The position numbers and the translations under genes are program-made. The notes under the pieces are model-generated. The model was not told where the DNA came from. It did no database searches and saw only the letters and a program-made list of their open reading frames with translations. Positions 1 to 14,371 of a stretch of DNA of 64,000 nucleotides are shown here, one piece after another. Source of the DNA: Acidisarcina sp. (lineage in GTDB: Bacteria; Acidobacteriota; Terriglobia; Terriglobales; Acidobacteriaceae); assembly GCA_035539175.1 (NCBI GenBank), contig DATLIY010000012.1:1-64000 (forward strand). The letters are read 5' to 3'. The number at the start of each line of letters is the position of its first letter. The stretch's first letter is position 1.

Positions 1-909
1 GACACCCCAGAGAGCACATATCTCCTCACGTTGAAATTTTCTGGACTCGATAAACTGAGCATCGCGCTGAGAGATAGCAATCGGCTCATACTTCCAATTG
101 CCTGCGACGAAAACGGTCTTACCGGCTGATCCAGATCCAGCTCGCTGCTGATCCCACGAAGTTTTAGCCGTGGTTAGTTCCGCAAGATCGATGTCATCCG
201 GGGTGGACATGATACCCCCGGGGTCGCCACCGGTGCCAAAGTAGCTGGCAGCATACTTCTCCGCAGCTTTAGCTAGTCCCAATCCCTGTCGTGCGAGATC
301 GATCGGACTATAGCCTTTGAGCCCATCGAAGCAAAACAAGGGTACATGGATGATGTCCGCAGGAGCTATCTGAGTCTCAGCATGACTCTCAGGGTCGGTA
401 AATGTATAGATGAGGGACTTTTTTTTGCGCTTGGGCTCGATGAGGCGAGGCGGGATCGGCCATAGCGCTACTACTTGTCCCGCTGGGTTGCGCTCTATGA
501 GGGCGTAGCCATTGCCTGTCAGAGCCATAGCCCCGGAGAGGGCGGTAAAAAATGTGAAAGCCGTCATCTCCGGGTTTGGCTCTTGCGTGAGCTTGTAGTA
601 CAGCGGGTGGTCTACAGCCTCGGTGTGATTTGCACCATCGATGGAATACATCTTCGCTGGCATGCCTGCTACACCGTTACCTATGACGCGGATGCAGGCA
701 TAGACAGCGCCGATGCGTAGCGCCGACTCTGTATTGATCGACTCGCCGGATACTGTGGGATAAGATCCGGAGAGTAGCTGGTATGCAGCGGGGGACGACA
801 GTGATACAGCAGGATTTTCGAGGCTGAGACCCGCACCGCGCAACGTGATGGGCGCGGCATCGCGCTCCATCGATTCGCGTGCCGCCTGGATGGCTGAGAA
901 GATTCCCAT
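1..909 (-). CDS. Phage portal protein, HK97 type (partial, 3' end outside window)
   Basis: Reading from the ATG at 909, the frame stays open for 303 codons to the window edge. The portal forms the dodecameric ring through which DNA is packaged and ejected. The translation starts MGIFSAIQAARESMERDA and contains the typical phrase YACIRVIGNGVAGMPAKMY near residue 70, then GNGYALIERN, then RKFQREEICALWGV at the edge. This is the HK97-type (PF04860) pattern, where a conserved FQREEIA-type motif precedes the C-terminal third. The gene starts 8 bases after the large terminase stop, the standard order terminase then portal. About a quarter to a third of the protein should lie beyond the window. Confidence 0.9.
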   Translation of the reverse strand, partial: MGIFSAIQAARESMERDAAPITLRGAGLSLENPAVSLSSPAAYQLLSGSYPTVSGESINTESALRIGAVYACIRVIGNGVAGMPAKMYSIDGANHTEAVDHPLYYKLTQEPNPEMTAFTFFTALSGAMALTGNGYALIERNPAGQVVALWPIPPRLIEPKRKKKSLIYTFTDPESHAETQIAPADIIHVPLFCFDGLKGYSPIDLARQGLGLAKAAEKYAASYFGTGGDPGGIMSTPDDIDLAELTTAKTSWDQQRAGSGSAGKTVFVAGNWKYEPIAISQRDAQFIESRKFQREEICALWGV

Positions 910-917
910 TTGTGTCC

Positions 918-2585: not shown

Positions 2586-2591
2586 AAATCA

Positions 2592-3029
2592 TCATCCGTG
2601 CTTAGCACCCCGCTCAAACACGTCGCGTGGATCGCTGGTCTTAGGCGTGTTCGGCGCAACATTCACCTTCACGCGGTCTGAGGGATTGAGCCCGCATTTT
2701 CCGCTGAGACGCCCCAACTCGGACCGCTCACCGGGCTTGATTGCTCGCCGGCGCTCCAGGAGCTTCAGCTCACAGATGCTCTCGACGGTCCATCGATCTG
2801 CTGACGTCAGCCAGGGCGCCATCTCCTGGACCTCGCGCCAGAGTTCCCGCAGCTCACCGCAGCGCTGATAGTCAAACTCGGGGAACACAGCAGACCAGCG
2901 CGACGGAGGATCGCCCAGAGGACCATCCGGTGTCGGCTCGCCTGCGCGAGCTGCCGCACGCTTCGGGTTTTTCTTATGCGCGCCGGTGAGCTGCAAAAGA
3001 TTGGTTGGTTTTGGTGGCCGTCCAGCCAT
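2592..3029 (-). CDS. Phage terminase small subunit, P27 family
   Basis: This 145-residue protein probably recognises the packaging site and feeds DNA to the large terminase. It starts MAGRPPKPTNLLQLTGAHKK, the classic opening of P27-type small terminases (PF05119), where GRPPKP is followed by a short basic stretch. The middle contains WREVQEMAPWLTSADRWTVE, and the end is basic and polar as expected. It stands directly upstream of the large terminase. The 217-base gap before it (toward the HNH gene) may hold the cos or pac site. Confidence 0.88.
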   Translation of the reverse strand: MAGRPPKPTNLLQLTGAHKKNPKRAAARAGEPTPDGPLGDPPSRWSAVFPEFDYQRCGELRELWREVQEMAPWLTSADRWTVESICELKLLERRRAIKPGERSELGRLSGKCGLNPSDRVKVNVAPNTPKTSDPRDVFERGAKHG

Positions 3030-3246
3030 TTAGGAACTCATTTCGAGTGTTACCTGGTCTATCGCAGCGGTGCGGATACCGTACCGCATCAATGGAGGCT
3101 ATCGGATACCGAGCATGATCGAACGCTTATATCCATGCCCTATTTCCCTGAAAACTCCATTTTGTGGATGTATAAGGGAGGGCCCCCATACGGTCTCGGA
3201 ACTGCCGCTTCTGCACTATCTCGACCCCCCATCCCTACCAGGGATC
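3030..3246. other. Gap between HNH and small terminase genes; candidate packaging (cos) region
   Basis: No convincing coding frame lies in these 217 bases, which is unusual in an otherwise closely packed phage operon. It holds short inverted elements such as CCCTACCAGGG near 3234 and a purine-rich run followed by a C-run around 3173-3190. In phages with an HNH nuclease next to the terminase genes, the cohesive-end site often lies near that nuclease gene. Placing cos here is inference from gene order only; I see no motif that proves it. Confidence 0.3.
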
Positions 3247-3600
3247 CTATTCGCCCCTGGCCGTGCGCGCGTTGTGATGTTCCTCGCACAGCGGCATCAG
3301 ATTGCTCTCCGCGTACTTCAGCCTGGGATGCTCCGCCAGCTTCTTGATATGGTGAACGTGCCTCGCCATCGCCACATGGCCGACTGATTCACAGTCCACA
3401 CACAACGGGTGACGCCGCAAGTATCCCGCGCGAAACGTGCGCCACTTGCTGTCGTATCCTCGACTCGCCGCACTGCCACGATATCGATCCGGCTCGCGCA
3501 CCTGCCGTTCCATCGGCCGATGCTGGAGACAATACCTTCCGCCAACAACCAGCGCAGCACATCCAGGATTACCGCACGGGTGCTTGCTGCGACTCGGCAT
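3247..3600 (-). CDS. Phage HNH endonuclease
   Basis: The 117-residue protein contains a zinc-ribbon-like start (CGNPGCAALVVGGRYCLQH) and a typical HNH core in its C-terminal half: CVDCESVGHVAMARHVHHIK followed by NLMPLCEEHHNART. HNH proteins beside terminase genes are known to help the terminase cut cos DNA. I chose the ATG at 3600 because it overlaps the stop of the upstream gene by one base (TAATG); a longer reading to 3702 would run over that gene. The product follows the expected order HNH, TerS, TerL, portal. Confidence 0.9.
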   Translation of the reverse strand: MPSRSKHPCGNPGCAALVVGGRYCLQHRPMERQVREPDRYRGSAASRGYDSKWRTFRAGYLRRHPLCVDCESVGHVAMARHVHHIKKLAEHPRLKYAESNLMPLCEEHHNARTARGE

Positions 3601-3839
3601 TACAGCATCGCCTCCACCGCCTCGTGAATCTCCCGACAGAATCCACCCATCGAATAGAAGTGTGGTGCGCTTACCACTGTGAGCGTCAGCACTGGCGCGC
3701 AATATGCAAACCTCACGTCTGCACCGAACTTTTTAATCTCGCCTTCTGTGCCTGCGACCTGCAGGTCTTTCGCTTGCAGCGCTGCGATGACCTTCGCGAA
3801 CTGATCCGGCGTTACCGGGCTGAATATCAACGTCTGCAT
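3600..3839 (-). CDS. Small phage protein of unknown function
   Basis: A 79-residue protein, starting MQTLIFSPVTPDQFAKVIAA. I do not recognise its family. It mixes alpha and beta character, is soluble by appearance and has no signal or membrane segment. Its stop overlaps the start of the HNH gene by one base, so the two are likely translated together. It is the first gene after a hairpin terminator at 3934-3973, so it may open the packaging transcript. A role in DNA packaging is possible from position alone. Confidence 0.65.
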   Translation of the reverse strand: MQTLIFSPVTPDQFAKVIAALQAKDLQVAGTEGEIKKFGADVRFAYCAPVLTLTVVSAPHFYSMGGFCREIHEAVEAML

Positions 3840-3933
3840 CGTACCGTCCTCGCGCGGGCCGGACTCACCCGATTACCCGCGCTTGCCATCGACTGCGGCT
3901 GCTTACTGTGGTTGTTGCTGGTGAATCCCAATC

Positions 3934-3973
3934 TTAAAAAATCGGGCGCTGCTTGCTTCCGCCGACAGCGCCC
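3934..3973 (-). terminator. Rho-independent terminator after the lysis genes
   Basis: On the minus strand an 8-base stem, GGGCGCTG (RNA sense, 3973-3966) pairing with CAGCGCCC (3951-3944), is followed by GATTTTTTAAG. This is a good hairpin plus T-tract. It lies 39 bases after the stop of the 113-residue gene and before the packaging genes, so it probably ends or attenuates the lysis-gene transcript. Confidence 0.7.
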
Positions 3974-4011
3974 ATCTGCCCTTCAATCCTCGCCTCTATG
4001 GGCGAGATCCC

Positions 4012-4353
4012 TTACAGCTTGATACCCAGCGCCTTGAAGTCGGAGACAATCGTCGCTTCACCCGCCTTGAAGTCGGAGACAACCTGCTTTACCAGGCTGA
4101 TCGTCGTCTCGCTGAGCGTGATCGCACTGACCACATTTCCTGACTGCGCCGAGGCCGCCGCCGACTCGGCCGCATTCACCGTCTTCACCACGTCATAAAA
4201 CACCGCGCTCGCAGCCGCCAGGACTGGGCCCGAAAGCGCGCCCCAGATCGCCGACAACGTCTTCGCGCCCTTCACCACGCTAATCAAAAAATCTTCCACT
4301 TTTTTCCCAGCGGCGACCAGATCGCCGAAGAACGTGCTCATCGGATTGCTCAT
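4012..4353 (-). CDS. Phage protein of unknown function, Ala/Val-rich, helical
   Basis: A 113-residue protein beginning MSNPMSTFFGDLVAAGKK; a second ATG four codons in (4341) is an alternative start. The sequence is rich in Ala, Val and Ser and looks mostly helical, with one fairly hydrophobic stretch (LSGPVLAAASAVFYDVV, about residues 40-56). The C-terminus carries a short internal duplication, VSDFKAGEATIVSDFKALG, matched by a 20-bp direct DNA repeat. It closes the lysis gene group and precedes a terminator. I do not recognise a family; a membrane-associated or structural role is possible. Confidence 0.6.
   Translation of the reverse strand: MSNPMSTFFGDLVAAGKKVEDFLISVVKGAKTLSAIWGALSGPVLAAASAVFYDVVKTVNAAESAAASAQSGNVVSAITLSETTISLVKQVVSDFKAGEATIVSDFKALGIKL
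4030..4082. repeat. 20-bp direct repeat inside the 113-residue phage gene
   Basis: The 20 bases CGCCTTGAAGTCGGAGACAA occur at 4030-4049 and 4063-4082, 33 bases apart, which keeps the reading frame. They encode the duplicated VSDFKA peptide at the C-terminus of the gene. Identity at DNA level suggests a recent in-frame duplication. Confidence 0.85.
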
Positions 4354-4386
4354 TAGCTCCTCTTTCGCCGATTGCCAACCGGCAGG

Positions 4387-4590
4387 TTATTTTCCTGGTA
4401 TAGGAGACTGCGTAAGATAACCCGCAGCCCCAAAGAGCGCGCTCACTCCCGCGACGGCAGCGAGATGCAGCAATCCACTCCTGTTCGCCGCGAACGCACT
4501 TGGATCCACGATGACCGCTGTTGTCGCCGCGGCCGCTCCGTGCACAATTGCAGCAACCAAACCCTTGATCCAGATCCGCAGATCATCCAT
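4387..4590 (-). CDS. Small holin-like membrane protein
   Basis: A 67-residue protein starting MDDLRIWIKGLVAAIVHG. Two hydrophobic segments are visible (about residues 9-26 and 40-58, the second LLHLAAVAGVSALFGAAGYL), followed by a short polar tail (TQSPIPGK). Size, two membrane segments and location right after the lysozyme-like gene fit a holin, but the family is not one I can name. I chose the ATG at 4590 because it overlaps the lysozyme-like stop (TGATG); a longer frame to 4674 would overlap that gene. Confidence 0.65.
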   Translation of the reverse strand: MDDLRIWIKGLVAAIVHGAAAATTAVIVDPSAFAANRSGLLHLAAVAGVSALFGAAGYLTQSPIPGK

Positions 4591-5081
4591 CACACCGCCT
4601 CCGGCATTGCCACATCGTTGTAGTAGTGCACGCAGTCTGCGATGTACTTCTCGGGAACGCTGCGATCTCGCCACGTTCCCGAGTTATATGCGTCTGCGAT
4701 CTGCTCAATCGTCGTCGCCTTCTGGGCTCGTATGATTCGCATGTTGATATAGCTCGCCGTCTCCATCGCGCAGCGATCTACACGCACAAAATCTTCCGGC
4801 GTCGTAAAGCTCGACGCATTCACCAAGAGCAGCTGCCATGGTCCAAACGAGCAGTGCGCGTCATGCCCAAACTCGCGCGTCAACTCAATCACCCGCGGAT
4901 CGTGCGAGTAAATACCGATGCAGTAAGCCATCTCATGCCGCGGCGTGCAATTCGCGCCGAAGCTCGACTCGCAGCCGCTCAATGCCCATAAGAGCCGCGG
5001 CCCGTCGATGCTCTCTGGAACCCAAAGCTTCGCGCCCCAGCGCTTGCACGCGTCCGCTACTTGCTCCCTTACGAAGCTCAT
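4590..5081 (-). CDS. Phage lysozyme / lytic transglycosylase-like endolysin
   Basis: This 163-residue protein probably degrades host peptidoglycan at the end of infection. The N-terminal part has LLWALSGCESSFGANCTP (about residues 29-46), resembling the catalytic E-S-S-F region of SLT-type transglycosylases. Then come SFGPWQLLLVNA (about 78-89) and IADAYNSGTW (about 128-137), which match the later motifs of that fold (G-x-x-Q, AYN-x-G). No signal peptide is seen, so export would rely on a holin. It lies between the coiled-coil membrane protein (1-base gap) and the holin-like gene (1-base overlap). Confidence 0.75.
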   Translation of the reverse strand: MSFVREQVADACKRWGAKLWVPESIDGPRLLWALSGCESSFGANCTPRHEMAYCIGIYSHDPRVIELTREFGHDAHCSFGPWQLLLVNASSFTTPEDFVRVDRCAMETASYINMRIIRAQKATTIEQIADAYNSGTWRDRSVPEKYIADCVHYYNDVAMPEAV

Positions 5082-5336
5082 CTAGAATCTCGTCTCTGCG
5101 ATGCCGAGCTTTGATTCCACTACCGAGATCCGCGCCCCATGATGGTTCAGCAGATCATCGTGCCGCTCGAATTTGACATCGAGTTTTTCGAACCGCATCT
5201 CGTGGCCGGCAAGTTGATCCGTATGCTGGGCCACCTTTCCGACCAGCTTTCCATAGAGAAACACCTGGCCGCAGACCGTGATAAATACCAGCGCGATTCC
5301 GACAAGCGCCGAAATCATGGCCCAATTAACAATCAC
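5082..5336 (-). CDS. Membrane-anchored coiled-coil protein of the lysis cassette
   Basis: An 84-residue protein with one N-terminal membrane segment (about residues 6-28, ISALVGIALVFITVCGQVFL) followed by a charged helical tail with heptad character (KVAQHTDQLAGHEMRFEKLD). This layout is seen in inner-membrane spanin subunits and haemolysin-XhlA-like holin partners. The stop is directly adjacent to the lysozyme-like start, so the genes form one cassette. The exact role (spanin, holin partner or holin) cannot be settled from sequence alone. Confidence 0.65.
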   Translation of the reverse strand: MIVNWAMISALVGIALVFITVCGQVFLYGKLVGKVAQHTDQLAGHEMRFEKLDVKFERHDDLLNHHGARISVVESKLGIAETRF

Positions 5337-5363
5337 GCGATACCCCCAGAGCTACTTCGGCTG

Positions 5364-5813
5364 TTACACCCGTACCGCTTGATCGTCGCCAATTTGGCGA
5401 TAGTGCTTCACCTTGAACGCAGCCTCTTCGACCGCATCCGCGTCGGGCAGCCCGATCCTCTGGCCTGCCCTGCGCAATTCATCCCGCAACGCGACAGAGA
5501 GCGATTTCCCGTCCGCGAAGCATTGCCCCGCGTTCAGATCCATCTCGCCTTCTGTTATCGTGGTCGCTACCGGAATGCCGGGCAGAACTGAGCGGTCTCT
5601 CTGCGGAGCCCTTAGCGGCTGATAGCCGAGGTGCGCGCCGCTCACTCCGTCATAGACGCGACGCCATTGGCCCAGCCGCACCTTCTCTTCGCCCATGGCG
5701 AAGCTGACATGACCGCACTCTGGATCCATCCTCCAACCCAGAGACGTGTTGTAGAGATAGAGTATGAAGGCCCGTTTGGCCGTTCGCGGTTTCTTGTAGG
5801 GCGACTTGGCCAT
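5364..5813 (-). CDS. Phage protein of unknown function
   Basis: A 149-residue protein beginning MAKSPYKKPRTAKRAFILYL, with a basic N-terminus and an acidic, helical C-terminal part (VALRDELRRAGQRIGLPDAD, then VEEAAFKVKHYRQIGDD). I do not recognise the family. No signal peptide or membrane segment is visible. It sits between the early and lysis genes, 27 bases before the coiled-coil membrane gene and after a 181-base gap that holds an inverted repeat, so it may be the first gene of the late transcript. Confidence 0.6.
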   Translation of the reverse strand: MAKSPYKKPRTAKRAFILYLYNTSLGWRMDPECGHVSFAMGEEKVRLGQWRRVYDGVSGAHLGYQPLRAPQRDRSVLPGIPVATTITEGEMDLNAGQCFADGKSLSVALRDELRRAGQRIGLPDADAVEEAAFKVKHYRQIGDDQAVRV

Positions 5814-5842
5814 CTGCCAGTCGCGAACACAGCCAGGGCGTG

Positions 5843-5891
5843 CTCGACTCTCAGCAATACCGGGTACTCCCGGTCGAGGGATCGCTGAGAG
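5843..5891. repeat. Composite inverted repeat upstream of the 149-residue phage gene
   Basis: Three nested arms pair around one centre: CTCTCAGC (5848-5855) with GCTGAGAG (5884-5891), CTCGAC (5843-5848) with GTCGAG (5873-5878), and CCGGG (5860-5864) with CCCGG (5869-5873). The inner arms form a short hairpin. It lies in the 5814-5994 gap, in front of the minus-strand late genes. It could be an operator, an RNA structure or a weak terminator; no T-tract follows. Confidence 0.45.
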
Positions 5892-5994
5892 ACAGGATTG
5901 CTAACGTGTACAACAGCGGGCTTTCGTGCCGCCAGGACCGATGCTCTGAATCCTTCGTCGCTTGCGCGAGCGTTTTCCTTGCTACATCCACACC

Positions 5995-6198
5995 CTATAC
6001 GGGTTTTGCGCTTTTACAAGATGTGTCTAGACACTTTTCTTGCGCACTGTCGATCAGGCGATTGAGCACCATCGTCAATGTGCGATTCCCAGCCATCCGG
6101 CAGAGCTTGGCATAGCGCTCTTCGGTGATTCTCAAACCCAACTGCTTGCCCTTGCGCCGCGTCGGCCTGCGAGTAACTACGCTGATTCCCGGTGTCAT
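5995..6198 (-). CDS. Small ribbon-helix-helix-like DNA-binding protein
   Basis: A 67-residue basic protein: MTPGISVVTRRPTRRKGKQ, then LGLRITEERYAKLCRMAG and TLTMVLNRLIDSAQEK. A short strand (QLGLRI) followed by two helices is the layout of ribbon-helix-helix repressors. The gene start overlaps the stop of the replication initiator (ATGA), so the two are probably co-translated. It may regulate replication or the switch to late genes; that is inference from position. Confidence 0.6.
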   Translation of the reverse strand: MTPGISVVTRRPTRRKGKQLGLRITEERYAKLCRMAGNRTLTMVLNRLIDSAQEKCLDTSCKSAKPV

Positions 6199-7091
6199 AG
6201 TCCAGCCCTCGCTCCACGTCGCATGTCAATGCGTTGCTGATCGATCGGCCATCCCTGCCAGTTGATCCAATGGCCATCACCGAAAAACTTCCTAGGCCCC
6301 CAGGTGAAGCGCAAAAACTCGCCCATCGTGACGTATTGCCGATAGTTCTCGATCATCTCATCGGAGATCGCCGCAACCTCGATCGCTTCGTGTCCCGATG
6401 TCCGGGATCGCTTCTCGCGCTCCAGGCTTAGCGCAGCGGAAACCACGGCCCTGAGCCGCGAGTTGGAGAGAATGAACCCACACTCGCGCATAACTCTCTC
6501 TGCCTCGGCATCGATGCCGCCAGCAATAGCGCTGACACTCTCCATACGCCTGGCGCCCGCTTTCGTCGCGGCTTCATCCTTCGCTGACCCGTTGCCTTCC
6601 GCATGTGCTTCGTGCTCCTTTTCTTCGCAGTCCCCCTGCAAGGGGGTAGGGGGGATAATACTTGATGGTTCATGGTGGTTCATGATGGTTACACCAAATA
6701 GGGGGTCTGGGGGAATGTCGTGGATGTCACCCTTTTGCGCCAGGATGTCACCCTTTCTGTCGTGGATGTCACCCTTTTGCATCTTCGTTTCGCCCGCTGA
6801 AAGGGTGACAGGGTGACACCCTTTCAGCCTTCGAACATCGATCGTGTAACTTGAGAACACGCCTCTTCCTCCGGCCCGCTCCACCGTCATCCAGCCGTCG
6901 GCGACGAGCGATGCAATTGCCCTCTGCACCGTCCGCTCGGAGTAGCGCAGCATCTTCGCAACCCGCGCGACAGATGGAAAGCAGTTACCGCCGTCGTCGT
7001 TACAGAAGTTGGCCAGAGCCACTAATACGGCACACTGCGCCGCATCCTCGGGCCCGTTATCCCATACATCCGCCATCACCCGCACACTCAT
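6195..7091 (-). CDS. Phage replication initiator-like protein with winged-helix N-terminus
   Basis: A 298-residue protein. Residues about 15-85 form a helix-turn-helix domain of the HTH_36 type: CFPSVARVAKMLRYSERTVQ followed by RAIASLVADGWMTVERAGG, common in phage O-like initiators. The middle is low complexity and contains a KGDI repeat (QKGDIHDRKGDILAQKGDI), which is the coded form of DNA iterons. The C-terminal part (EFLRFTWGPRKFFGDGHWIN) resembles the end of other phage replication proteins. The ATG at 7091 overlaps the upstream stop (ATGA). A transcription-regulator role is the main alternative. Confidence 0.72.
   Translation of the reverse strand: MSVRVMADVWDNGPEDAAQCAVLVALANFCNDDGGNCFPSVARVAKMLRYSERTVQRAIASLVADGWMTVERAGGRGVFSSYTIDVRRLKGCHPVTLSAGETKMQKGDIHDRKGDILAQKGDIHDIPPDPLFGVTIMNHHEPSSIIPPTPLQGDCEEKEHEAHAEGNGSAKDEAATKAGARRMESVSAIAGGIDAEAERVMRECGFILSNSRLRAVVSAALSLEREKRSRTSGHEAIEVAAISDEMIENYRQYVTMGEFLRFTWGPRKFFGDGHWINWQGWPIDQQRIDMRRGARAGL
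6716..6828. repeat. Iteron cluster and inverted repeat: candidate phage replication origin
   Basis: The 14-mer GGATGTCACCCTTT occurs at 6722-6735, 6743-6756 and 6764-6777, a strict 21-bp period. The outer two are part of an identical 23-bp stretch (6716-6738 and 6758-6780). Just beyond is an inverted repeat GCTGAAAGGG (6796-6805) and CCCTTTCAGC (6819-6828), whose loop holds two opposite-strand copies of the core (GGGTGACA twice, 6803-6818). The cluster is inside the putative initiator gene, as the lambda origin is inside gene O. Origin function is inferred. Confidence 0.6.
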
Positions 7092-7441
7092 GCCGCCGCC
7101 TTGCGCCTCGCCACGTGCCGCCGCACCGCGTCCAGCAGAGCGGCGACGGAACCATCTCTGACGACCTCCTGCGCCGTCCATCCGCTGGTATCGACAGGCT
7201 CGCCCCGCGTCCAGGCAACTACGGGCGTCCCCTCTGCCCACTGCGCGATCGCGCGCACCGGTGTCGCCGTTGCCGCCACCACAAGTACCAGGTCCGCGCG
7301 CCGGCCAAACCCGTCTCGCATATGTGCGTCGTCACGCGGCGCCCGGTCAACCTTATAGCCACAGGTCCAGAGCACAAAGCCGATGCGCTCCGCCTGGTCC
7401 TCGTCGGAGCAGTACAACAAAAGTCGCTTCTTTGGCCTCAC
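7088..7441 (-). CDS. Receiver-like small phage protein lacking the phospho-acceptor
   Basis: A 117-residue protein. It opens KKRLLLYCSDEDQAERIGFV and continues LWTCGYKVDRA, close to the first strand, acidic loop and first helix of response-regulator receivers. At the position of the phosphorylated Asp, strand 3 reads ADLVLVVAAT with no Asp, so it is probably not phosphorylated there. The end is basic (VRRHVARRKAAA). The start is taken as the GTG at 7441, which overlaps the upstream stop (GTGA); a longer frame to 7507 would run inside the upstream gene. A pseudo-receiver or a general Rossmann-like fold are both possible. Confidence 0.6.
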   Translation of the reverse strand: MRPKKRLLLYCSDEDQAERIGFVLWTCGYKVDRAPRDDAHMRDGFGRRADLVLVVAATATPVRAIAQWAEGTPVVAWTRGEPVDTSGWTAQEVVRDGSVAALLDAVRRHVARRKAAA

Positions 7442-8124
7442 CTCCCGGCACTCCCCAGCAACGCCAGCAGAGCGAGCTTCTTGTCTGCCTCGGTTAACCC
7501 GGCCCACATGGCATCGAGCCGTTGGCCCACAGGTCCGCGCTGCGGCGCGAGGGGCAGATCATCGACAGCACGCTCCGTGGGATCAGCAGCCATTGCACAT
7601 TGTTCTGCGGATTTCTTCACGACCGCGGATTCCTTCACGACCGCGGATTCCTTCACGACTGCGGATTCCTTCACGACCGCGGATTCCTTCAGCTTGGAAA
7701 CTCCAGCCCTCGCGCGGATGTAATAGATAGATCCGTCGGACAGGCCATACTTACGCGCCAGCTTTGCACCCGGCGTATCCGGATGTTCGGCGAGGATTGC
7801 TTCCTTCACCTTTTGCGCTATTCTCGCGCCCTTCGGCTTAGTCGTCTTGATTCCCATTTCTTCTCCCTGAGTATTGCCAACCCCATGATCGTCGCCTGGC
7901 GCATCCCCTCCGTGGGTCGCGGGCGGTGCGCTTAACGCCTCGCCAAAGATGTCCACGGGTATGGCACCCGCCTGCTTCTTCTTTTCCACGCGATCGAACG
8001 AGCAAGGCTCACAATCTGCGCACTCCATGCATAGCGCCTGCCCATCCACAAAGATCTGCGCCTGGCAAACATGCCCACGCTGCAGACAATCCACGCACGC
8101 CTCGCGCGCAGTCGGCCTTGTCAT
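7438..8124 (-). CDS. Phage DNA-binding protein with Cys cluster, HTH and KESAVV repeats
   Basis: A 228-residue protein. The N-terminus has a Cys cluster (CVDCLQRGHVCQAQ, then CMECADCEPCSF, within residues 10-42) that could bind zinc. A helix-turn-helix segment follows (PGAKLARKYGLSDGSIYYIR, about residues 116-136). After it come four tandem copies of a six-residue unit KESAVV, coded by an 18-bp DNA repeat. The C-terminus is helical. It overlaps both neighbours by four bases. A regulatory role in the phage early operon is likely, but no family name is clear. Confidence 0.65.
   Translation of the reverse strand: MTRPTAREACVDCLQRGHVCQAQIFVDGQALCMECADCEPCSFDRVEKKKQAGAIPVDIFGEALSAPPATHGGDAPGDDHGVGNTQGEEMGIKTTKPKGARIAQKVKEAILAEHPDTPGAKLARKYGLSDGSIYYIRARAGVSKLKESAVVKESAVVKESAVVKESAVVKKSAEQCAMAADPTERAVDDLPLAPQRGPVGQRLDAMWAGLTEADKKLALLALLGSAGR
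7613..7684. repeat. Four tandem 18-bp repeats inside the HTH gene
   Basis: Four units of TCCTTCACGACCGCGGAT run head to tail at 7613-7630, 7631-7648, 7649-7666 and 7667-7684, with one base difference each in the first and third. Each encodes the six-residue unit KESAVV (minus strand). Copy number can change without altering the frame, so this may vary between related phages. Confidence 0.9.
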
Positions 8125-8594
8125 TGCACTTTCCTTTCCGCCGCTGCGTCGAGCGCGGCTAGGTATCCGTCCATCTCCGCGACTATCTCTTTCCTGCGGG
8201 CGGCGCTCCCAGGGTGCCCATCACGAAGATGCAACCCTATCCACTTCTCATTAAAATCGCGGGTCTTCTGGATGTACTCCCGCAGGTTCTTCAATGGCGT
8301 ATTCGGTTCTGACGTGTATTGCCCGAACCCTACTCCGAGTTGCTCGCTTTCCATCGGCTTGCGAAGTAAATCGCGAATTTCCTCCGCAAGCTCGACAGCC
8401 GACTTCTCCAAGTCTTTGGGCATCAGGAGCACGCAGTGGAACTTTCCGGCGATGTTGACTTGCAGTGCTAGGCAGTCCTTCCATCCCTTTTCCGGGCTGC
8501 CATACTGCGAGCACGTCAAGGCGTGGTGACAGTGCTCGGGCGGGGTAATCACGCGCTCAAGCTCTTTCATAACGTCGATCAGAAACTGGTGCAT
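8121..8594 (-). CDS. Phage protein of unknown function
   Basis: A 157-residue protein beginning MHQFLIDVMKELERVITPPE. It contains CHHALTCSQYGSPEKGWKDC early on and a predominantly charged, helical second half. I do not recognise the family. A clear ribosome-binding site (AAAGGAGAG) precedes the ATG, and a copy of the 57-bp intergenic module ends just upstream (8612-8668). The stop overlaps the start of the next gene (ATGA), so it heads a coupled run of genes into the replication initiator. Confidence 0.7.
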   Translation of the reverse strand: MHQFLIDVMKELERVITPPEHCHHALTCSQYGSPEKGWKDCLALQVNIAGKFHCVLLMPKDLEKSAVELAEEIRDLLRKPMESEQLGVGFGQYTSEPNTPLKNLREYIQKTRDFNEKWIGLHLRDGHPGSAARRKEIVAEMDGYLAALDAAAERKVQ

Positions 8595-8611
8595 TTCTCT
8601 CCTTTTGCCAC

Positions 8612-8668
8612 TACCCTCGTGCCAGCGTTGTTCTGCCGATATACTTGCGCCCCTATCGCGACATTACT
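8612..8668. repeat. 57-bp intergenic module, copy 1
   Basis: This stretch matches 9123-9179 at 52 of 57 positions. It contains a GATATAC core and a TCGCGA palindrome. It fills the space between the stop of the 46-residue frame (8668) and the start of the 157-residue gene. Copy 3 at 9527 repeats its first half. It may be a promoter or operator for the downstream minus-strand gene. Confidence 0.85.
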
Positions 8669-8808
8669 TAATAAGGGCTCGTCTCGTTCCGCTCTTCTTC
8701 AGCGTATTCATCACGTTTTTGAGCACGTTGTAGCCGGTCAATTTCTGCGGCAATTAGCGCCCCCGCGATAGTGAGTTCGCGAATCCAAGAGCCACGGTGT
8801 TTCGCCAC
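8668..8808 (-). CDS. Short frame (46 aa), probably the displaced C-terminal part of the upstream phage gene
   Basis: From a GTG at 8808 the frame reads VAKHRGSWIRELTIAGALIA then AEIDRLQRAQKR and ends at TAA 8668. The phrase AGALIAAEIDRLQR is the usual C-terminus of phage proteins whose N-terminal part reads like the adjoining upstream gene (AAERTRQIDVEGWTPEHDD). The two frames are joined by a -1 shift at a G5 run beside the upstream TAG. It may be reached by a -1 ribosomal shift, by restart at the GTG (TAGTG overlap), or be the result of a one-base deletion. Confidence 0.65.
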   Translation of the reverse strand: MAKHRGSWIRELTIAGALIAAEIDRLQRAQKRDEYAEEERNETSPY

Positions 8809-9110
8809 TAGCCCCCACGGTCAACCCTTACCCATTCGACCCCTGGATGCAGCACTGACACGTCTGTGCCGTCGAGTGCCAATGCAGCGGCTTGGATCGC
8901 CATCACGGCGTCTGTGTGCCTGTCGTCGTGTTCCGGCGTCCAACCTTCGACATCTATCTGCCGCGTGCGCTCAGCCGCGATCAACTCCACACCGCTCATC
9001 GTTTTCGGCATCGGCGGCTTCGGGCATCCACCGCTATAGCCGTGATACTTGAACATCTCTTCGCCTTGCGGCATCGGTTCGCCGCACAGTTCGCATTTCG
9101 TCACTTCCAT
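8808..9110 (-). CDS. Phage protein with Cys motif and AAERxRQxxVEGW motif (N-terminal part)
   Basis: A 100-residue protein starting MEVTKCELCGEPMPQGEEMF. A possible metal-binding Cys pair (CELC, then GGCPKP) opens it, followed by ELIAAERTRQIDVEGWTPEH, a well-known signature of a group of small phage proteins of unknown function. It ends early, at VEWVRVDRGG, where relatives continue into a conserved C-terminal helix; that helix is found in the -1 frame at 8668-8808. A strong ribosome-binding site (AGGAGAAACG) precedes the ATG at 9110. Confidence 0.75.
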   Translation of the reverse strand: MEVTKCELCGEPMPQGEEMFKYHGYSGGCPKPPMPKTMSGVELIAAERTRQIDVEGWTPEHDDRHTDAVMAIQAAALALDGTDVSVLHPGVEWVRVDRGG

Positions 9111-9122
9111 CGTTTCTCCTTG

Positions 9123-9179
9123 TACCCTCGTGCCAGCGTTGTTATTCCGGTATACTTGCGCCCCTGTCGCGACGTTACT
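9123..9179. repeat. 57-bp intergenic module, copy 2
   Basis: The second full copy of the module. It has a GTATAC palindrome near the middle and a GTCGCGAC palindrome near the end. It lies between the stop of the DUF4326 gene (9182) and the ribosome-binding site of the 100-residue gene (start 9110). The placement mirrors copy 1, hugging the stop of the upstream gene and the start of the next. Confidence 0.85.
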
Positions 9180-9181
9180 AA

Positions 9182-9523
9182 TCAGCGATTGGCAAATTCG
9201 ATCAACACGGCCGCATGACACGGCTGATCTGGCGGACAAAAACACATCAAATCTTTCCCCCGCAGTTGCTCCAAATGCTTCCGCATCCACGCTCTCCGGG
9301 AGTCACACTCTGGCCCTTGCCACCAATCCGTATGGCCGGAAAGCCACGATCTGAAGCACTCAACCACCAACTTCCTCGCGCCGGATTCATCCTTGGCGTA
9401 CCCGCTTTCAATAGCGCCAGCGATTGTGAATGGATTTCCCCAAGGGCCGGGACGGGTGACACTCACTGCGCCGGCAGGAGCCTTCCAGCCCTTCGTTCTT
9501 CTGCGTTGAATTCTGATTGGCAT
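9182..9523 (-). CDS. DUF4326-family phage protein
   Basis: A 113-residue protein with the pattern RPGPWGNPFTIAGA near residue 25 and LRGKDLMCFCPPDQPCHAAV near the C-terminus. Both are hallmarks of the DUF4326 family (PF14216), small proteins frequent in phages and plasmids whose biochemical role is not established. The conserved Cys and His residues (CFC, PCH) suggest metal binding. The start ATG at 9523 follows a GAGGGTA sequence that is itself part of the third copy of the intergenic module. Confidence 0.85.
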   Translation of the reverse strand: MPIRIQRRRTKGWKAPAGAVSVTRPGPWGNPFTIAGAIESGYAKDESGARKLVVECFRSWLSGHTDWWQGPECDSRRAWMRKHLEQLRGKDLMCFCPPDQPCHAAVLIEFANR

Positions 9524-9526
9524 ATG

Positions 9527-9552
9527 TACCCTCGTGCCAGCGTTGTTATTCC
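9527..9552. repeat. Intergenic module, partial copy 3
   Basis: These 26 bases match the first part of modules 1 and 2 exactly or nearly so, including CTCGTGCCAGCG. The second half (palindromes) is missing. It lies directly upstream of the DUF4326 start, and on the minus strand it supplies the GAGGG ribosome-binding site. The rest of the gap (9553-9688) shows no supported gene. Confidence 0.8.
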
Positions 9553-9688
9553 CCTAGCGAGCATCCCTTCTATCCGAGTTTGCTGCAGCGGAGCTGGCCC
9601 GCCTGGGGAATGTGGTATCAGCCATTGTTCCGGCCCACCCGCAGCCCGCTGCATCTTCCAGGGTGTCTCGCTCACCCGGGAAACTTGA

Positions 9689-10429
9689 TTACGCGATCAC
9701 CGTGGATTCCGGCAACTCGTACTTGATCCACTTGGTGATGCTCCCGATCGTGTCGAGCTTCCACTTCGCATCAATCTCGTGGAGGACTACAGTCGGGATG
9801 CCGTCTTTGACGTTCTTCATGCGCAGCAGAAATTTCGATTCAACTGGATTCACTTCGCGGAAAGTGCGCCAGGGAATTAGTGACACGCCCTCTGCCGGCA
9901 GCTTGATCGCCTCGCGTGTCACTGCGCCAACCTTCAACACGACGCTCTGCGACATGCCGTCGTCGGCCAGCGCGACTGAATTCTCGGCCGACACGTTCGA
10001 CGCTATCCGCTGTACGAGCACGGCATTCTCGTTGAAGAGAAAGCTCGCACGAAATGCGAGCAGGAAATCTTCCGGGGTGTAGTAGGTGTCAAACCTGAAC
10101 GGGATCTCATCCGCGTGCCGCGCCCGTGCCCAGACGTGACGGCGACCGAAGCTATCCGCCTCCAACGCGACCAGTGCAACGGTGCGATAGTCCTCAATCT
10201 GAACTGCGACCTGCTCCGGAAATCCATCGATGTTCGCCTTGTACGCGTCAACGAATCCCGCGAGCGTACTGACGTTCAAGGTTGGAGCGTCAAACTGCGG
10301 CGGCAGATCGCGGATCGGCGCGCCCAGGGTGCCATCACTCTTGACTGCATACGGCTGCCCGCCAACTTCGCGAACAGGCTCAAACGGCTGCTTTAGCCGC
10401 GCAAATAGATACTCCAATATCTCCTGCAT
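9689..10429 (-). CDS. DUF2303 (YfdQ-like) phage protein, putative
   Basis: A 246-residue protein. It contains LNVSTLAGFVDAYKANIDGF (about residue 52) and AVQIEDYRTVALVALEADSF, then a C-terminal region with IPWRTFREVNPVESKFLLRM. The arrangement resembles the DUF2303 / YfdQ family (PF10065) of phage and prophage proteins of unknown function, which often sit in early regions. No signal or membrane segment is visible. It is 44 bases downstream of the 124-residue gene, also a known partner in such regions. The family call rests on overall pattern only. Confidence 0.6.
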   Translation of the reverse strand: MQEILEYLFARLKQPFEPVREVGGQPYAVKSDGTLGAPIRDLPPQFDAPTLNVSTLAGFVDAYKANIDGFPEQVAVQIEDYRTVALVALEADSFGRRHVWARARHADEIPFRFDTYYTPEDFLLAFRASFLFNENAVLVQRIASNVSAENSVALADDGMSQSVVLKVGAVTREAIKLPAEGVSLIPWRTFREVNPVESKFLLRMKNVKDGIPTVVLHEIDAKWKLDTIGSITKWIKYELPESTVIA

Positions 10430-10473
10430 GTTTCCTCTCTTTCAGTTGCACCACGTTGCACCGCGTAACAGCA

Positions 10474-10848
10474 CTACTTACCAGCCGGAGTGAACTGCAA
10501 TGGCTTCGGAGCCTCGACCGGCCTGGGAGGAGTAAAGAAGCTGAGCTGGCGCGGATCGGAGTTGAGCGCATACAGTCCGCCGTCCTTGTCCTGCCCAAGA
10601 AAGATCCGCGAGGTGTTCGGTGTGATCGACGACAGCTTCGCGACACAGGTAAACTGCGTGTCGATCTGGACGCGATCCTCTTTTGGCCTCAGCTCCAGGC
10701 GCAACACAATTTCGCGCTTCGCAGTTGCCGAGGTAGTCGGATCGGCTATGTTGGCGAGTACTTCCCTCAGTTTCAAATCAAAGGCTTCGACGAGAGCGCC
10801 ATCGGAGACGTTCCCAATATTGATCGTGATCAATTCCTCAGCAGCCAC
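10474..10848 (-). CDS. Putative phage replication-terminator-like protein
   Basis: A 124-residue protein starting MAAEELITINIGNVSDGALV and continuing AFDLKLREVLANIADP, then REIVLRLELRPKEDR. Proteins with this INIGN-x2-xGALVE opening and NIADPNT segment are often annotated replication terminator protein in phage early regions, though experimental support is thin. It lies directly upstream of the DUF2303-like gene, the common arrangement. No membrane segment or signal is seen. Confidence 0.6.
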   Translation of the reverse strand: MAAEELITINIGNVSDGALVEAFDLKLREVLANIADPTTSATAKREIVLRLELRPKEDRVQIDTQFTCVAKLSSITPNTSRIFLGQDKDGGLYALNSDPRQLSFFTPPRPVEAPKPLQFTPAGK

Positions 10849-10872
10849 GTATTCCCCTTTCCGCGAGACGAC

Positions 10873-11205
10873 TTAAAACAAATGTGAAAACAACAGATGC
10901 AGCGCCCACCGCGCCGCCGTTATAGCGATCGACCAGATAGCGGCGCCCACCGCACCACAGACAAGCGCCGTCACGAGGACAGTTCCATCCATGCCGGAAT
11001 CGTCCTCGACCGCGGCGACGATCTTTACTCGAGGTAGAGAGCCAAACAAAGAATCCATGCGCGTGGAGACCAACTCGCGCTCAGCATACGTCGCCTCCAT
11101 CTCCGCCTCGCGCCGTGCGCACTGGTCGCAGTAGTTCACCGACCAGGTAAGGTCTCCGCATCCCGGACAGATCCGTAGCGAACCAACCACCGAATGAGCA
11201 TTCAT
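10873..11205 (-). CDS. Small phage membrane protein with N-terminal zinc ribbon
   Basis: A 110-residue protein with a CxxC-x10-CxxC motif near the start (CPGCGDLTWSVNYCDQC, residues 13-29), a charged helical middle, and a C-terminal hydrophobic stretch (VLVTALVCGAVGAAIWSIAI, about 77-96). It is probably anchored in the inner membrane by its C-terminus with the zinc ribbon in the cytoplasm. The start overlaps the upstream stop (ATGA). Family and function are unknown. Confidence 0.65.
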   Translation of the reverse strand: MNAHSVVGSLRICPGCGDLTWSVNYCDQCARREAEMEATYAERELVSTRMDSLFGSLPRVKIVAAVEDDSGMDGTVLVTALVCGAVGAAIWSIAITAARWALHLLFSHLF

Positions 11206-11510
11206 GCCACACGACCTTTCCGCGACTTAGCCTTCAGGCGATACTGCCGCCGCTTCTCGCGTTGCTCCTCTGCGATCAGTGCGCCGATCTCCGCGGGAGT
11301 CCGCTTTCGCTTCCACTCCGACTCCATGCGCATCCGAGCCGCGTGCTCTTCGTTCCGTGCGCGAATGCACGCCGGAGCGTTGCAGCAGTTACGCGCCTTC
11401 GCAATCCAGACCGGCCCCTCGCTGCGGTGAAAACTACACGGATCCTCCTCGCTGCACCTACAGAATCGGCAGACACCCGGAGGCGCTATCAGCTCCCCCA
11501 TGTGCTTCAT
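11202..11510 (-). CDS. Small Cys-rich basic phage protein
   Basis: A 102-residue protein, MKHMGELIAPPGVCRFCRCS, then EEDPCSFHR and CCNAPACIRARN. The CxxC-x-C...C pattern with EEDPC is shared by many small phage proteins of unknown function and could bind zinc. The C-terminal half is strongly basic and helical (MESEWKRKRTPAEIGA, then EEQREKRRQYRLKAKSRKG), suggesting nucleic-acid binding. I chose the ATG at 11510 because it overlaps the ParB-like stop (ATGA); an earlier start would lie inside that gene. Confidence 0.7.
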   Translation of the reverse strand: MKHMGELIAPPGVCRFCRCSEEDPCSFHRSEGPVWIAKARNCCNAPACIRARNEEHAARMRMESEWKRKRTPAEIGALIAEEQREKRRQYRLKAKSRKGRVA

Positions 11511-13219
11511 TTTTTGCCGCCTTTCTTTCCCGCGGTTTTCTTCGCGGTCGATTGCTTCTTTGGTGCCGCCTTTTTCGCTGGAGCTTTTTTCGCAGGACGC
11601 TTCTGATCGGGCTTTCCACTCACCTGGTTCTCGATCGCCTCGGCGTCGATACCGAGAGATTCCGCTAAGGCCCACAGCTCTCTGCGATCTTTCCCCATAG
11701 CGCGGTTACCCCAATCAGGGATAGCCAGAGGTCCGACTGCGAGGTCGCAGATGTAGCCCTCCAATTCGTCGTCCTTGGATTGCTTCAGTAGCGCAACGAC
11801 CGTATCGTGCCGATGTTTGTCCTCGGCCTGCACCCAGCCGAGGAACTCGGAAAGCTCCCAAACGTTACTTTCCTCAAACAACCGGCTCATGGCCACGCGA
11901 AGCAGCTTCGACCCTTTGGCTTTTCGCCGAATCGCCGCATAAACGGCTTTCCGGATCGGCAACTCAGCGACCAACCACGCCGCCTCTTCGGCCTTCTCGC
12001 GCTTCTGGCGAACCTCCCAGCTTTCCTGCTTTGGCCCAGGAGCGGCCTTCACCGCGGGCGACGTGACTATGTGCGGGTGCACCTTGCATTTCGGATCGAC
12101 GCAAACGTCGAGCAGCTCGCCTTCGTCCGTAATGCCTTTCTGCACGCTGCCACACTCGCCAGGCTTAGCCGAGAGCCACTGGCCTTTCTTGTAGCTCTTC
12201 TGCCCCTCGCGCACGCCCATGTAATTGGCCTGCATCGAAAGCTTCAGGAGCGGCTTGCCCGATTTCTCTGCGGCCTCGGCAGTGATATGGATGAAGGTTT
12301 TCTTCTTTTCCGAGAAGCAGTCAGGATCAGTGCACACATCGGCCTGCGCCGTCAGATCGGCGAAGAGCGCCTGGTCTGCCCCGGTCCTCTTCGGGCAATC
12401 CACGCATGCACCCGCGACGGGATGCATGTTCTGCGCATCCAGCGGCCACGGCGCCGACTTCAGATCGAGCAGAATGTGATCCTCGATCCAGGCGCGTAGG
12501 ACCCGCTCCGAGATTGGCTCGAACGCATCGCAGTAATCGTCCGGCGACTTGCCTTGCGCGATCATCTTGGCGCGGCCAGATTCAGCGTCACGCTTTTCTT
12601 CGCGGACTTCGTTGATTACGTCTGGCAACATCTTGCCAGCGTTGTGCATGTTCAAGGCGCGATGCGTCGCCTGTACCTGCTGCTGCGGCGTCAGCTTCGC
12701 AATCAACAGCGCCGCGCCGAATGCGATCAGCCCCTCGCGCGCACATTCTCGAGCCTCGGGGATCAGCTCCAACAACCGGCGACGCGATCGCACATAGGCC
12801 GCCGGCTTTCCTACTTTGTGTGCCAGGGCGTCGTCTGGAATAACCAGACCCTCATCCGCCGCGCGCTGGATGAGCATCTCGTAGGCCTCAGCCTCCTCCA
12901 TCGGGCTAAGATCGGCGCGCTGCAGGTTTTCCACGAGCTGCAGCTCGCGCGCATCAGCATCGTTCAGCTCGCGGACGATTGCGGGAACCGTATCGAGACC
13001 CAACATTTTCGCCGCACGCCAGCGACGCTCGCCGCCTAGAATTTCGTACCCGTCACCCAGAGGCCGCAGCTGCAGCGGGACCTTGATGCCGCCGCTCTGT
13101 ATAGACTCGGCCAGCTCACGTAGCTGCGACTCATCAATGGACTTGCGCGGGTTTGTGGGCGAGGGAACAATCAGCGCGACGGGTATTTGCCGTACCTGCA
13201 GATCGATCGTGGTGGTCAT
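11507..13219 (-). CDS. ParB/RepB-like protein of the phage early region
   Basis: A 570-residue protein. The N-terminal ParB domain is clear: IVPSPTNPRKSIDESQLREL, then GYEILGGERRWRAAKMLG and VENLQRADLSPMEEAEAY; the box GERRWRAA is the CTP-binding motif of ParB. A KorB-type helix-turn-helix follows. The middle carries a Cys-rich region (CVDCPKRTGADQALFA, then VCTDPDCFSEKK). The C-terminus is a Lys/Ala/Pro-rich tail (PAKKAPAKKAAPKKQ). No ParA is next to it, so it may be a regulator or DNA-organising protein, not a partition system. Confidence 0.85.
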   Translation of the reverse strand: MTTTIDLQVRQIPVALIVPSPTNPRKSIDESQLRELAESIQSGGIKVPLQLRPLGDGYEILGGERRWRAAKMLGLDTVPAIVRELNDADARELQLVENLQRADLSPMEEAEAYEMLIQRAADEGLVIPDDALAHKVGKPAAYVRSRRRLLELIPEARECAREGLIAFGAALLIAKLTPQQQVQATHRALNMHNAGKMLPDVINEVREEKRDAESGRAKMIAQGKSPDDYCDAFEPISERVLRAWIEDHILLDLKSAPWPLDAQNMHPVAGACVDCPKRTGADQALFADLTAQADVCTDPDCFSEKKKTFIHITAEAAEKSGKPLLKLSMQANYMGVREGQKSYKKGQWLSAKPGECGSVQKGITDEGELLDVCVDPKCKVHPHIVTSPAVKAAPGPKQESWEVRQKREKAEEAAWLVAELPIRKAVYAAIRRKAKGSKLLRVAMSRLFEESNVWELSEFLGWVQAEDKHRHDTVVALLKQSKDDELEGYICDLAVGPLAIPDWGNRAMGKDRRELWALAESLGIDAEAIENQVSGKPDQKRPAKKAPAKKAAPKKQSTAKKTAGKKGGKK

Positions 13220-13851
13220 TCCGCACCCCCGCCGATCTCGTTGGTCTGTTGAAATGCCGGCGGCCAGGGCGACACGTCAGCCCGATGATTGCCGCTATGA
13301 CCCTTCTCCTTTTCGCATCGCACAGCGGATCCGAGCACCGGCAACAATGTGCCGCACCTCTCTGGGGCGCCCATCCGGTCGTTGGAATAGCCGTGCAGCC
13401 GCAGGGTACGCTCGACGATCTCCTGGATGGTTTCCACCTGGCGCGGGTCAAATGGGCGCGCGTGCCCCTCAGCACTCGCGCCCGTCGCTCCGGCTGCTTC
13501 GCATTCCTCCTTTTTGCTGGATTCGACTGCAGGGTGGATCCCTTTAGCTGGTTCCGTGGATTGCGTCTGTTTGATGACGAGATCGACAAGATCGAGCACG
13601 CGGCCCGTACGGCAGTGGGAGTAATGCCCACAACCTGGCCACACCTGAACCATTCGACACTCGACACATACGCGGCGATCAGGGCTCCCGATTGAACGGG
13701 TTATATTCCGTTCCGCCAGATCCTTCGCTGCAAAGATCAACTTCGCCAGCGCAATTTGTGTCGCAGCCCATCCTGGACGACGGACTGGCATCTCTTGCCC
13801 GAAATTGGGCGTTTCTAACGATTGCGATTGGATGCTGCGAGAATCATCCAT
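13216..13851 (-). CDS. Phage leader-gene protein of unknown function
   Basis: A 211-residue protein, MDDSRSIQSQSLETPNFGQE, with a Cys-rich central segment (CVECRMVQVWPGCGHYSHC, about residues 62-80) and a second short one (CGTLLPVLGSAVRC) near the C-terminus that resembles zinc-binding sites. I do not recognise the family. The ATG at 13851 is chosen because GGAGAG stands seven bases before it; an upstream ATG at 13887 has no such site. It is the first gene after the tRNA and overlaps the ParB-like start (ATGA). Confidence 0.65.
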   Translation of the reverse strand: MDDSRSIQSQSLETPNFGQEMPVRRPGWAATQIALAKLIFAAKDLAERNITRSIGSPDRRVCVECRMVQVWPGCGHYSHCRTGRVLDLVDLVIKQTQSTEPAKGIHPAVESSKKEECEAAGATGASAEGHARPFDPRQVETIQEIVERTLRLHGYSNDRMGAPERCGTLLPVLGSAVRCEKEKGHSGNHRADVSPWPPAFQQTNEIGGGAE

Positions 13852-13908
13852 TTGCGCTCTCCATAGCGTGAGCGCTCGATACCGCATGAGCGCGAGGCGA
13901 TGGTAGAG

Positions 13909-13955
13909 CTACGGTTGCTGGTCTGAGCTACGCGCATACAACCGTAGGTCAGACC
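13909..13955. repeat. Nested inverted repeats before the first phage gene
   Basis: Two interleaved inverted repeats are present: CTACGGTTG (13909-13917) with CAACCGTAG (13939-13947), and GGTCTGA (13920-13926) with TCAGACC (13949-13955). They lie between the tRNA and the first early gene, the natural place for the early promoter and its operator. The early operon promoter itself is not evident. Confidence 0.6.
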
Positions 13956-14033
13956 CCTCTCACATGCTAAATATGGGAGAGATTCCGGGCAGACTACCAC
14001 CTGTTGCGCTTTGGAGGGTTGTTGCGGTGAAAA

Positions 14034-14110
14034 TGGTGACCCCGGGAAGATTCGAACTTCCGACCTGCGGTTTAGGAAACCGTTGCTCTATCCACCTGAG
14101 CTACGGGGCC
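14034..14110 (-). tRNA. tRNA-Arg (anticodon CCU), CCA encoded
   Basis: The minus strand gives a complete cloverleaf. The acceptor arm is GGCCCCG paired with CGGGGTC (one G-U). The D-arm is GCTC...GAGC, the anticodon loop TTCCTAA gives CCT, and the T-arm is GGAAG TTCGAAT CTTCC. The discriminator A is followed by an encoded CCA. Only the outer pair of the anticodon stem is mismatched. The 3' end faces the phage block, which supports its use as attachment site. Confidence 0.95.
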
Positions 14111-14371
14111 ATCGGCTGGTTGCTTTGACGAGTCTTAGTCTATCGCATTGCATTCCTCTATAGTCATGGATCGATTGTGCTCACGACGAAACTTTCCAAG
14201 CAACGAGATCCGGGCAATTCCCGCCTGTCCCGCTTCAACCTGTTGATCCCATCACCGCTTTTGACAGCAGAATTTCATTCTGCTAGAAACAGAATTTCCG
14301 GGGAACTTCATTTCAACGGCATATCCATGGGTTTCCGGGTCTTTTCAGTCGATCGGGCGATCCATATCAAC
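14111..14371. other. Gap between tRNA-Arg and the cobalamin riboswitch; candidate promoter with hairpin
   Basis: No gene is supported in these 261 bases. A promoter-like pair is present: TTGACA at 14261-14266, a 17-base spacer and TAGAAA at 14284-14289. The spacer is covered by a perfect 8-bp inverted repeat (AGCAGAAT 14266-14273, ATTCTGCT 14277-14284). It would drive the riboswitch transcript. The -10 is weak, so the call is tentative. Confidence 0.4.

Follow-up and report, generated by a model that had tools for sequence, protein, structure and literature searches.

Accessory slot of the prophage

The window, i.e., the whole stretch of Acidisarcina sp. DNA analyzed here (64,000 nucleotides), is the start of contig C12 in a genome of 3,916,581 bases. 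About the first 14 kb of it is a prophage whose end lies close to a tRNA-Arg gene. The minus-strand genes of the prophage include those of a terminase, a replication-initiator-like protein, and a ParB-like protein (Pfam/PHROG matches), the latter at 11507–13219. In addition, an HTH protein is encoded. The features that matter for the repeated module are listed below in the direction of the minus strand.

14034–14110, minus strand: tRNA-Arg (CCT) gene at the prophage edge, putative attachment site
9689–10429, minus strand: core gene upstream of the accessory slot (phrog_1029 by PHROG match; relatives found)
9525–9552, minus strand: module copy 3, start-proximal half only (28/28 with 9121–9148)
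9182–9523, minus strand: DUF4326 gene headed by copy 3 (PF14216, E 1.6e-22; phrog_464)
9123–9179, minus strand: module copy 2, the most complete copy (repeat match and stop-to-start alignment)
8808–9110, minus strand: N-terminal part of gene X, phrog_9434-like, headed by copy 2 (phrog_9434, E 1.5e-11)
8668–8808, minus strand: C-terminal part of gene X, in another frame (no interruption of the frame in the four relatives read)
8612–8668, minus strand: module copy 1 (52/57 identical to copy 2; stop-to-start alignment)
8121–8594, minus strand: orphan gene (157 aa) with copy 1 at its head, overlapping the start of the next core gene
7438–8124, minus strand: core gene on the downstream side of the slot (in L029 and L022, its relative comes after the phrog_1029 gene)

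Here, the slot is occupied by three accessory genes, each headed by a copy of the module, and is bounded by the phrog_1029 gene and the core gene at 7438–8124. In L029 and L022, two relatives of the phage, the same slot is without any ORF of at least 45 aa, and the relative of the downstream core gene is the first such ORF after the phrog_1029 gene. The remaining relatives differ in their gene order and gene content. The gaps of L029 and L022 give only matches of up to 16 nt to 7401–9800 (E at least 0.25); hence, the exact boundary of the insertion cannot be drawn.

The start codon of the DUF4326 gene is supported by its match to phrog_464, which runs from residue 1. An open frame of 70 aa (9463–9675), for which there is no PHROG match, passes through copy 3 and overlaps this start. 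Gene X (8668–9110) is divided between two frames, whose stop and start overlap in TAGTG. Its N-terminal part shows a 67% local match to a gene of L029, and the corresponding region is a single frame in L022, L029, L030, and L031, the relatives in which both parts were located. Gene X is, thus, either broken or translated as two coupled pieces. The orphan gene has no Pfam or PHROG match at E 0.01, and no relative of it was found in 398 other genomes of the class or, apart from the same phage, in IMG/VR.

Architecture of the repeated module

Realignment of copies 1 and 2 (8612–8668 and 9123–9179) confirms the match at 52 of 57 positions reported in the first-pass annotation; both copies have the same orientation. 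The 26 bases that had been assigned to copy 3 (9527–9552) do repeat the module, with 26/26 positions identical to copy 2 and 24/26 to copy 1. Toward copy 2, the identity extends by two more bases, with 9525–9552 being equal to 9121–9148 (28/28). In 100 first-order Markov versions of 1–14030, the longest exact direct repeat has a mean length of 13.7 nt and a maximum of 17 nt, which excludes a chance origin of the module repeat.

The spacers that contain copies 1 and 2 are complete intergenic regions of 73 nt (8595–8667) and 71 nt (9111–9181). They align from stop codon to start codon with short gaps around the Shine–Dalgarno (SD) region and are, judged by this alignment, homologous along their whole length. 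Read on the minus strand, the first base of copy 1 (8668) is the last base of the upstream TAA, and its end lies 17 nt from the start at 8594. Copy 2 is located between the stop at 9182–9184 and the start at 9110 and ends 12 nt from the latter. Between the 26-nt copy 3 and the ATG at 9523 lie 3 nt, and this copy begins 136 nt past the upstream stop at 9689; hence, it is not a full stop-to-start spacer. An upstream half was sought in the 70 nt upstream of copy 3, where the likeness did not exceed that of shuffles in four tests (P 0.50, 0.72, 0.94, and 0.85), and a hidden upstream half in this copy was rejected for this reason. What all three copies have in common is only the start-proximal half, which carries the motif GAGGG.

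A blastn search of 8581–9700 against the window aligned, beyond self matches, only the module copies and one stretch of 14 nt (E 0.54). Apart from the latter, the flanked genes are, thus, without DNA similarity, as had been claimed, and the search likewise supports the claim that the module was copied between unrelated genes. About 7.8% of 918–13887 is non-coding in our gene set; yet, all three copies are found at gene starts.

Relatives of the phage and distribution of the module

By means of the phrog_1029 protein, 16 relatives were gathered besides records of the same phage. Three near-identical pairs among them reduce this number to 13 distinct relatives. The record IMGVR_UViG_3300028024_000165 is the same phage—7,698/7,698 bases are identical over 6154–13851—and, hence, not an independent relative. 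The four relatives of the phage gene found in the genome collection all come from MAGs titled Acidobacteria or a group below. L009 and L010 share contigs with L027 and L034, and L016, a sister prophage on contig C9 of the same genome as the window, is identical to L029 over 3,669/3,669 bases. Together with the 16 relatives, these three make up the 19 family loci.

None of the 19 family loci, including the 13 distinct relatives, contains the module, and a search of its own genome returned it at the three described places only. At E 0.01, no copy was found in 60 other related genomes, a search in which the own genome returned all three. A draw of 398 other genomes of the class at E 0.01 yielded no copy and one 27-nt match in G108 (E 0.008), which is no more than chance for a draw of this size. 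A draw of 397 other genomes of the family at E 0.001 yielded no copy either. These three genome draws overlap, and their sum of 855 refers to genome searches, not to different genomes. Short partial copies may be missed in the class and family draws since these returned the own copies 1 and 2, but not copy 3.

The scans of IMG/VR used four patterns, as exact patterns only, taken from three parts of the module (leader, middle, upstream part); among the matches listed, more than one of the four occurred in the same phage only. The pattern GGGGCGCAAGTATAYCGG in L017 and L018 was rejected as a copy: by eye, it codes for a GRKY(I/T)G peptide, and these loci resemble the module only at this coding stretch. 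The pattern AACAACGCTGGCACGAGG in L019 was rejected as well, as it looks coding. GenBank phages and PLSDB plasmids gave no module match better than E 2, and the literature on boundary sequences and acidobacterial prophage repeats held nothing relevant among the matches listed. The module had been considered to be conserved; at the sensitivity used, no copy was found in other acidobacterial phages or genomes, and there is no sign of a conserved switch or a widespread mobile element. The first-pass annotation had taken a lack of copies in other genomes as a sign of local duplication, and by this standard, the result points to such a duplication.

The sister prophage (L016/L029) exhibits a different direct repeat of 182 nt, which is 94.5% identical between its copies and lies on both sides of the gene X relative. 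In L029, these copies are found at 6463–6644 and 8089–8270, with a truncated third copy at 9147–9171. As the repeat is largely coding, the parallel with the module is one of process and not of a sequence element. The second 182-nt copy of L029 appears to cut short a small gene starting with MKALSVRAPWW. In the region after the phrog_1029 gene (6 kb scanned; 3.9 to 5.0 kb in L031, L034, and L035), dispersed repeats of at least 25 nt occur in L029 only, among the 13 distinct relatives. The pair L028/L036 has dispersed repeats of 23 nt there.

Translation start signals and RNA folding

The predicted anti-SD pairing at the three starts amounts to -9.3 and -8.3 kcal/mol for copies 1 and 2 and to -6.1 kcal/mol for copy 3. 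In copy 3, GAGGG is the predicted SD sequence of the DUF4326 gene. The proposal that this copy supplies the ribosome-binding site, hence, agrees with the pairing predicted for it. For copy 3 alone, the nearest SD sequence is the GAGGG of the module itself. In copies 1 and 2, a second, stronger SD sequence follows after the module, which makes the module unneeded as a ribosome-binding site at these two genes.

A search of 8000–10600 against Rfam with E values up to 5 returned no RNA element. On either strand, the 57-nt copies 1 and 2 show no folding beyond that of shuffles (z-scores of -0.2 to 1.1). The RNA of the copy 3 region is predicted to be more folded than shuffles (z -2.2, with 6 of 200 shuffles being as good), and its fold involves predicted pairing with sequence upstream of the module.

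The module as a proposed duplicated gene leader

We propose that the module is a gene leader—meaning a 5′ UTR with a ribosome-binding site—that was multiplied by local duplication or recombination (cassette shuffling), and we give this reading, including its putative role, about an even chance. The repeat is real, was found in one phage only, and is most likely a recently copied gene leader that is ordinary in kind; there is a small chance that it is a young exchange cassette. The multiplication would have happened as accessory genes accumulated in a variable slot within the early gene run. At present, it may provide a working translation start for each inserted gene within a read-through operon; read-through transcription could suffice for these closely spaced genes, which share a strand. 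The repetition itself could serve as homology for the gain or loss of a cassette, such as gene X between copies 1 and 2, or for a swap.

Several findings argue for a duplicated leader. Spacers 1 and 2 are homologous from stop to start, the three copies head unrelated genes, and the start-proximal half, common to all of them, carries the SD sequence of one gene. Furthermore, the slot is empty of ORFs of at least 45 aa in L029 and L022, the sister prophage shows a similar event with another sequence, and the searches above found no module copies elsewhere. Against it stands that the upstream 31 nt are left without an explained role and that the second SD sequence makes the module dispensable as a ribosome-binding site in copies 1 and 2. 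The predicted extra folding of the copy 3 RNA is contrary to what an enhancing leader should show, and dispersed repeats around accessory genes are not general: among the 13 distinct relatives, only L029 has one of at least 25 nt in the stretch scanned after the phrog_1029 gene.

A rival reading is a neutral local duplication, in which a spacer was copied with a neighboring segment and has no role beyond that of any spacer with a ribosome-binding site. The occurrence in one phage only, the lack of a promoter-like site (see below) and of an Rfam match, and the folding of copies 1 and 2 at the level of shuffles are all consistent with it, as are the duplications of other sequence in the sister prophage and the frameshift of gene X, which is as expected in a decaying insertion. 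However, the three copies all lie at gene starts and in the same orientation in a region of which only about 7.8% is non-coding, and the flanking genes were not duplicated along with them. We regard a neutral duplication as unlikely, although well within consideration.

Comparison with known repeats at phage gene starts

Three papers describe SAS and ESAS as short repeats found where unrelated non-structural genes start; most of them share one orientation, and they lie near the ribosome-binding site (PMC3203893, PMC11373665, PMC12699233). The SAS of cluster K mycobacteriophages has the 13-bp consensus GGGATAGGAGCCC with up to two deviations (PMC3203893) and is usually located 3–9 bp from the start codon, at 13–19 genes per phage (PMC11373665). 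The upstream extension of ESAS is given for about half of the SAS sites (PMC3203893), putative SigA-like -35/-10 promoters are assigned to ESAS in one study (PMC11373665), and the role of SAS/ESAS needs further experimental verification according to a later paper (PMC12699233).

The module resembles SAS/ESAS in having a start-associated part and an upstream extension at some sites only, and it differs in its sequence and in its three copies in one phage versus 13–19 genes in many phages. Copy 3, 3 nt before the ATG, fits the SAS spacing, whereas the distance to the start is 17 nt for copy 1 and 12 nt for copy 2, and both of these are followed by a second SD sequence. With up to two mismatches, the SAS consensus is found neither in the module nor in the prophage; the window has two matches, both in its host part, compared with 2.06 expected, and the best scores in the copies are 10, 9, and 8 of 13. 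Unlike ESAS, the module contains neither a 17-bp imperfect inverted repeat nor a -35/-10 pair. Despite the similar layout, it lacks the defining features of SAS/ESAS.

T4-type PeSL cassettes are intergenic repeats before genes that combine an early promoter with a stem-loop and are said to mediate gene shuffling between related phages, and motifs of the haloarchaeal virus HGTV-1 are likened to them (PMC4503421 and PMC3950731). The module has in common with PeSLs that it is an intergenic repeat in front of genes. It differs from them by having no promoter-like site and, in copies 1 and 2, no significant stem-loop. With regard to shuffling of the PeSL type, the slot content does vary among the relatives, and the module is present in 0 of the 19 family loci. 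Cluster A mycobacteriophages (L5) carry stoperators, 13-bp sites that take part in transcription regulation and that PMC3203893 contrasts with SAS. Stoperators share with the module that short sites are repeated in a phage genome; unlike them, the module has no binding symmetry clearly beyond chance.

A two-part start element of the SAS/ESAS kind could nevertheless have arisen independently in the acidobacterial prophage. It would consist of a start-proximal leader of 26–28 nt and an optional upstream part of 31 nt, would mark accessory genes, and would act as a translation-start cassette and as homology for gene entry and exit, without the promoter and stem-loop of T4 PeSLs. We consider such an element rather improbable. 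If the reading as a multiplied leader is right, the locus shows, at a young stage, phage accessory genes lined up behind copies of a single leader; perhaps this precedes the kind of spread that SAS or PeSL elements have undergone.

Promoter and operator signals

The module had been interpreted as a promoter/operator with palindromes for a dimeric DNA-binding protein. If it were bound by a phage protein (ParB-like or HTH), the three genes would form a regulon. Both kinds of protein are encoded by the phage, and TCGCGA and a TATA stretch are kept in copies 1 and 2. The palindromes attributed to the copies are, however, only partly present: TCGCGA occurs in copies 1 and 2, GTATAC in copy 2 only (GTATAT in copy 1), and copy 3 contains neither. 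Overall, copy 1 has one 6-bp palindrome, and copy 2 has two of 6 bp and one of 8 bp. Among random 57-mers of the phage, 50% contain a 6-bp palindrome, 18% two of these, and 19% one of 8 bp. The palindromes of the module are, thus, close to what chance would give, and they are not shared by all copies. The 8-bp one of copy 2 is a point in favor of an operator. Inverted repeats of at least 8 nt with separate arms are absent from 8590–8675 and 9105–9190, the regions of copies 1 and 2. Copy 3 has two inverted-repeat pairs (15 nt at 80% and 9 nt at 89%), both of which extend beyond the module. The parS-type consensus is a 16-bp palindrome; similarity to this consensus is at background, with 8 and 9 of 16 positions compared with a random mean of 8.2 and a maximum of 11.

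A scan of 8000–14200 for sigma-70-like consensus sites gave 0 sites compared with 1.9 expected. With a promoter weight matrix of textbook values, 26 to 57% of random phage stretches score at least as high as the minus-strand regions of the three copies; for copies 1 and 2 on the plus strand, the shares are 9 and 33%. Low duplex stability ranks copy 2 in the 99th percentile within the phage, copy 1 in the 96th, and copy 3 in the 93rd; for copy 2, which is herein among the lowest 1% of the phage in stability, this is one feature leaning to a promoter. A further point in favor is that ESAS of cluster K phages, which are similarly placed, have putative promoters according to PMC11373665. The candidate region is, however, absent from copy 3. 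Taken together, consensus scan, weight matrix, palindrome counts, inverted repeats, and parS comparison leave the promoter/operator readings unsupported, and this part of the proposal in the first-pass annotation is, hence, not supported. We deem a promoter/operator shared by the three genes doubtful. A phage-specific operator, including a diverged ParB site, or an unusual promoter type or sigma factor is possible. If the leader reading is right, the case also cautions against taking a repeated spacer for an operator when it occurs in a single phage and has palindromes near chance level.

Possible coding relic or recombination site, and further repeats

The module could also be the remains of a gene end, with one open frame in copies 1 and 2. 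Frame 1 is indeed open in both, and two of the four changed codons are silent. In L033/L032, a 47-column match (E 0.009 with lenient scoring) to the C-terminal end of the relative of a core gene was found, which is in the same frame by our reading and, at 29.7 bits, exceeds the best match in reversed loci (21.1 bits). However, one of the 30 shuffled sets had a best match of 29.7 bits, too, the other relatives listed of this core gene have different gene ends, the frame 1 peptide is without a PHROG match, and tblastn in phages gave E values of at least 2 for all of the matches listed (10 of 31). The match in L033/L032 is, thus, judged to be near chance and the peptide searches gave nothing useful, and a coding relic appears very unlikely. 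About as unlikely is that the module serves as the site at which a dedicated recombination enzyme inserts gene cassettes: gene X does lie between two near-identical direct copies, but the searches found no module copies elsewhere in the host or other phages and no recombinase match among the 11 distinct phage proteins scanned from the prophage part within the contig.

Other repeats were observed in the phage and its relatives. An 18-nt tandem repeat at 7607–7696 is in frame within the core gene at 7438–8124 and encodes KESAVV repeats. The replication-initiator-like gene at 6195–7241 contains a repeated KGDIHD peptide (23-nt direct repeat), and in L031, a tandem repeat at 11414–11494 lies inside the relative of this gene. 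In a self-comparison of the whole locus, L035 shows several long and diverged direct repeats before the phrog_1029 gene (2668–3958), with 74–86% identity over up to 351 columns.
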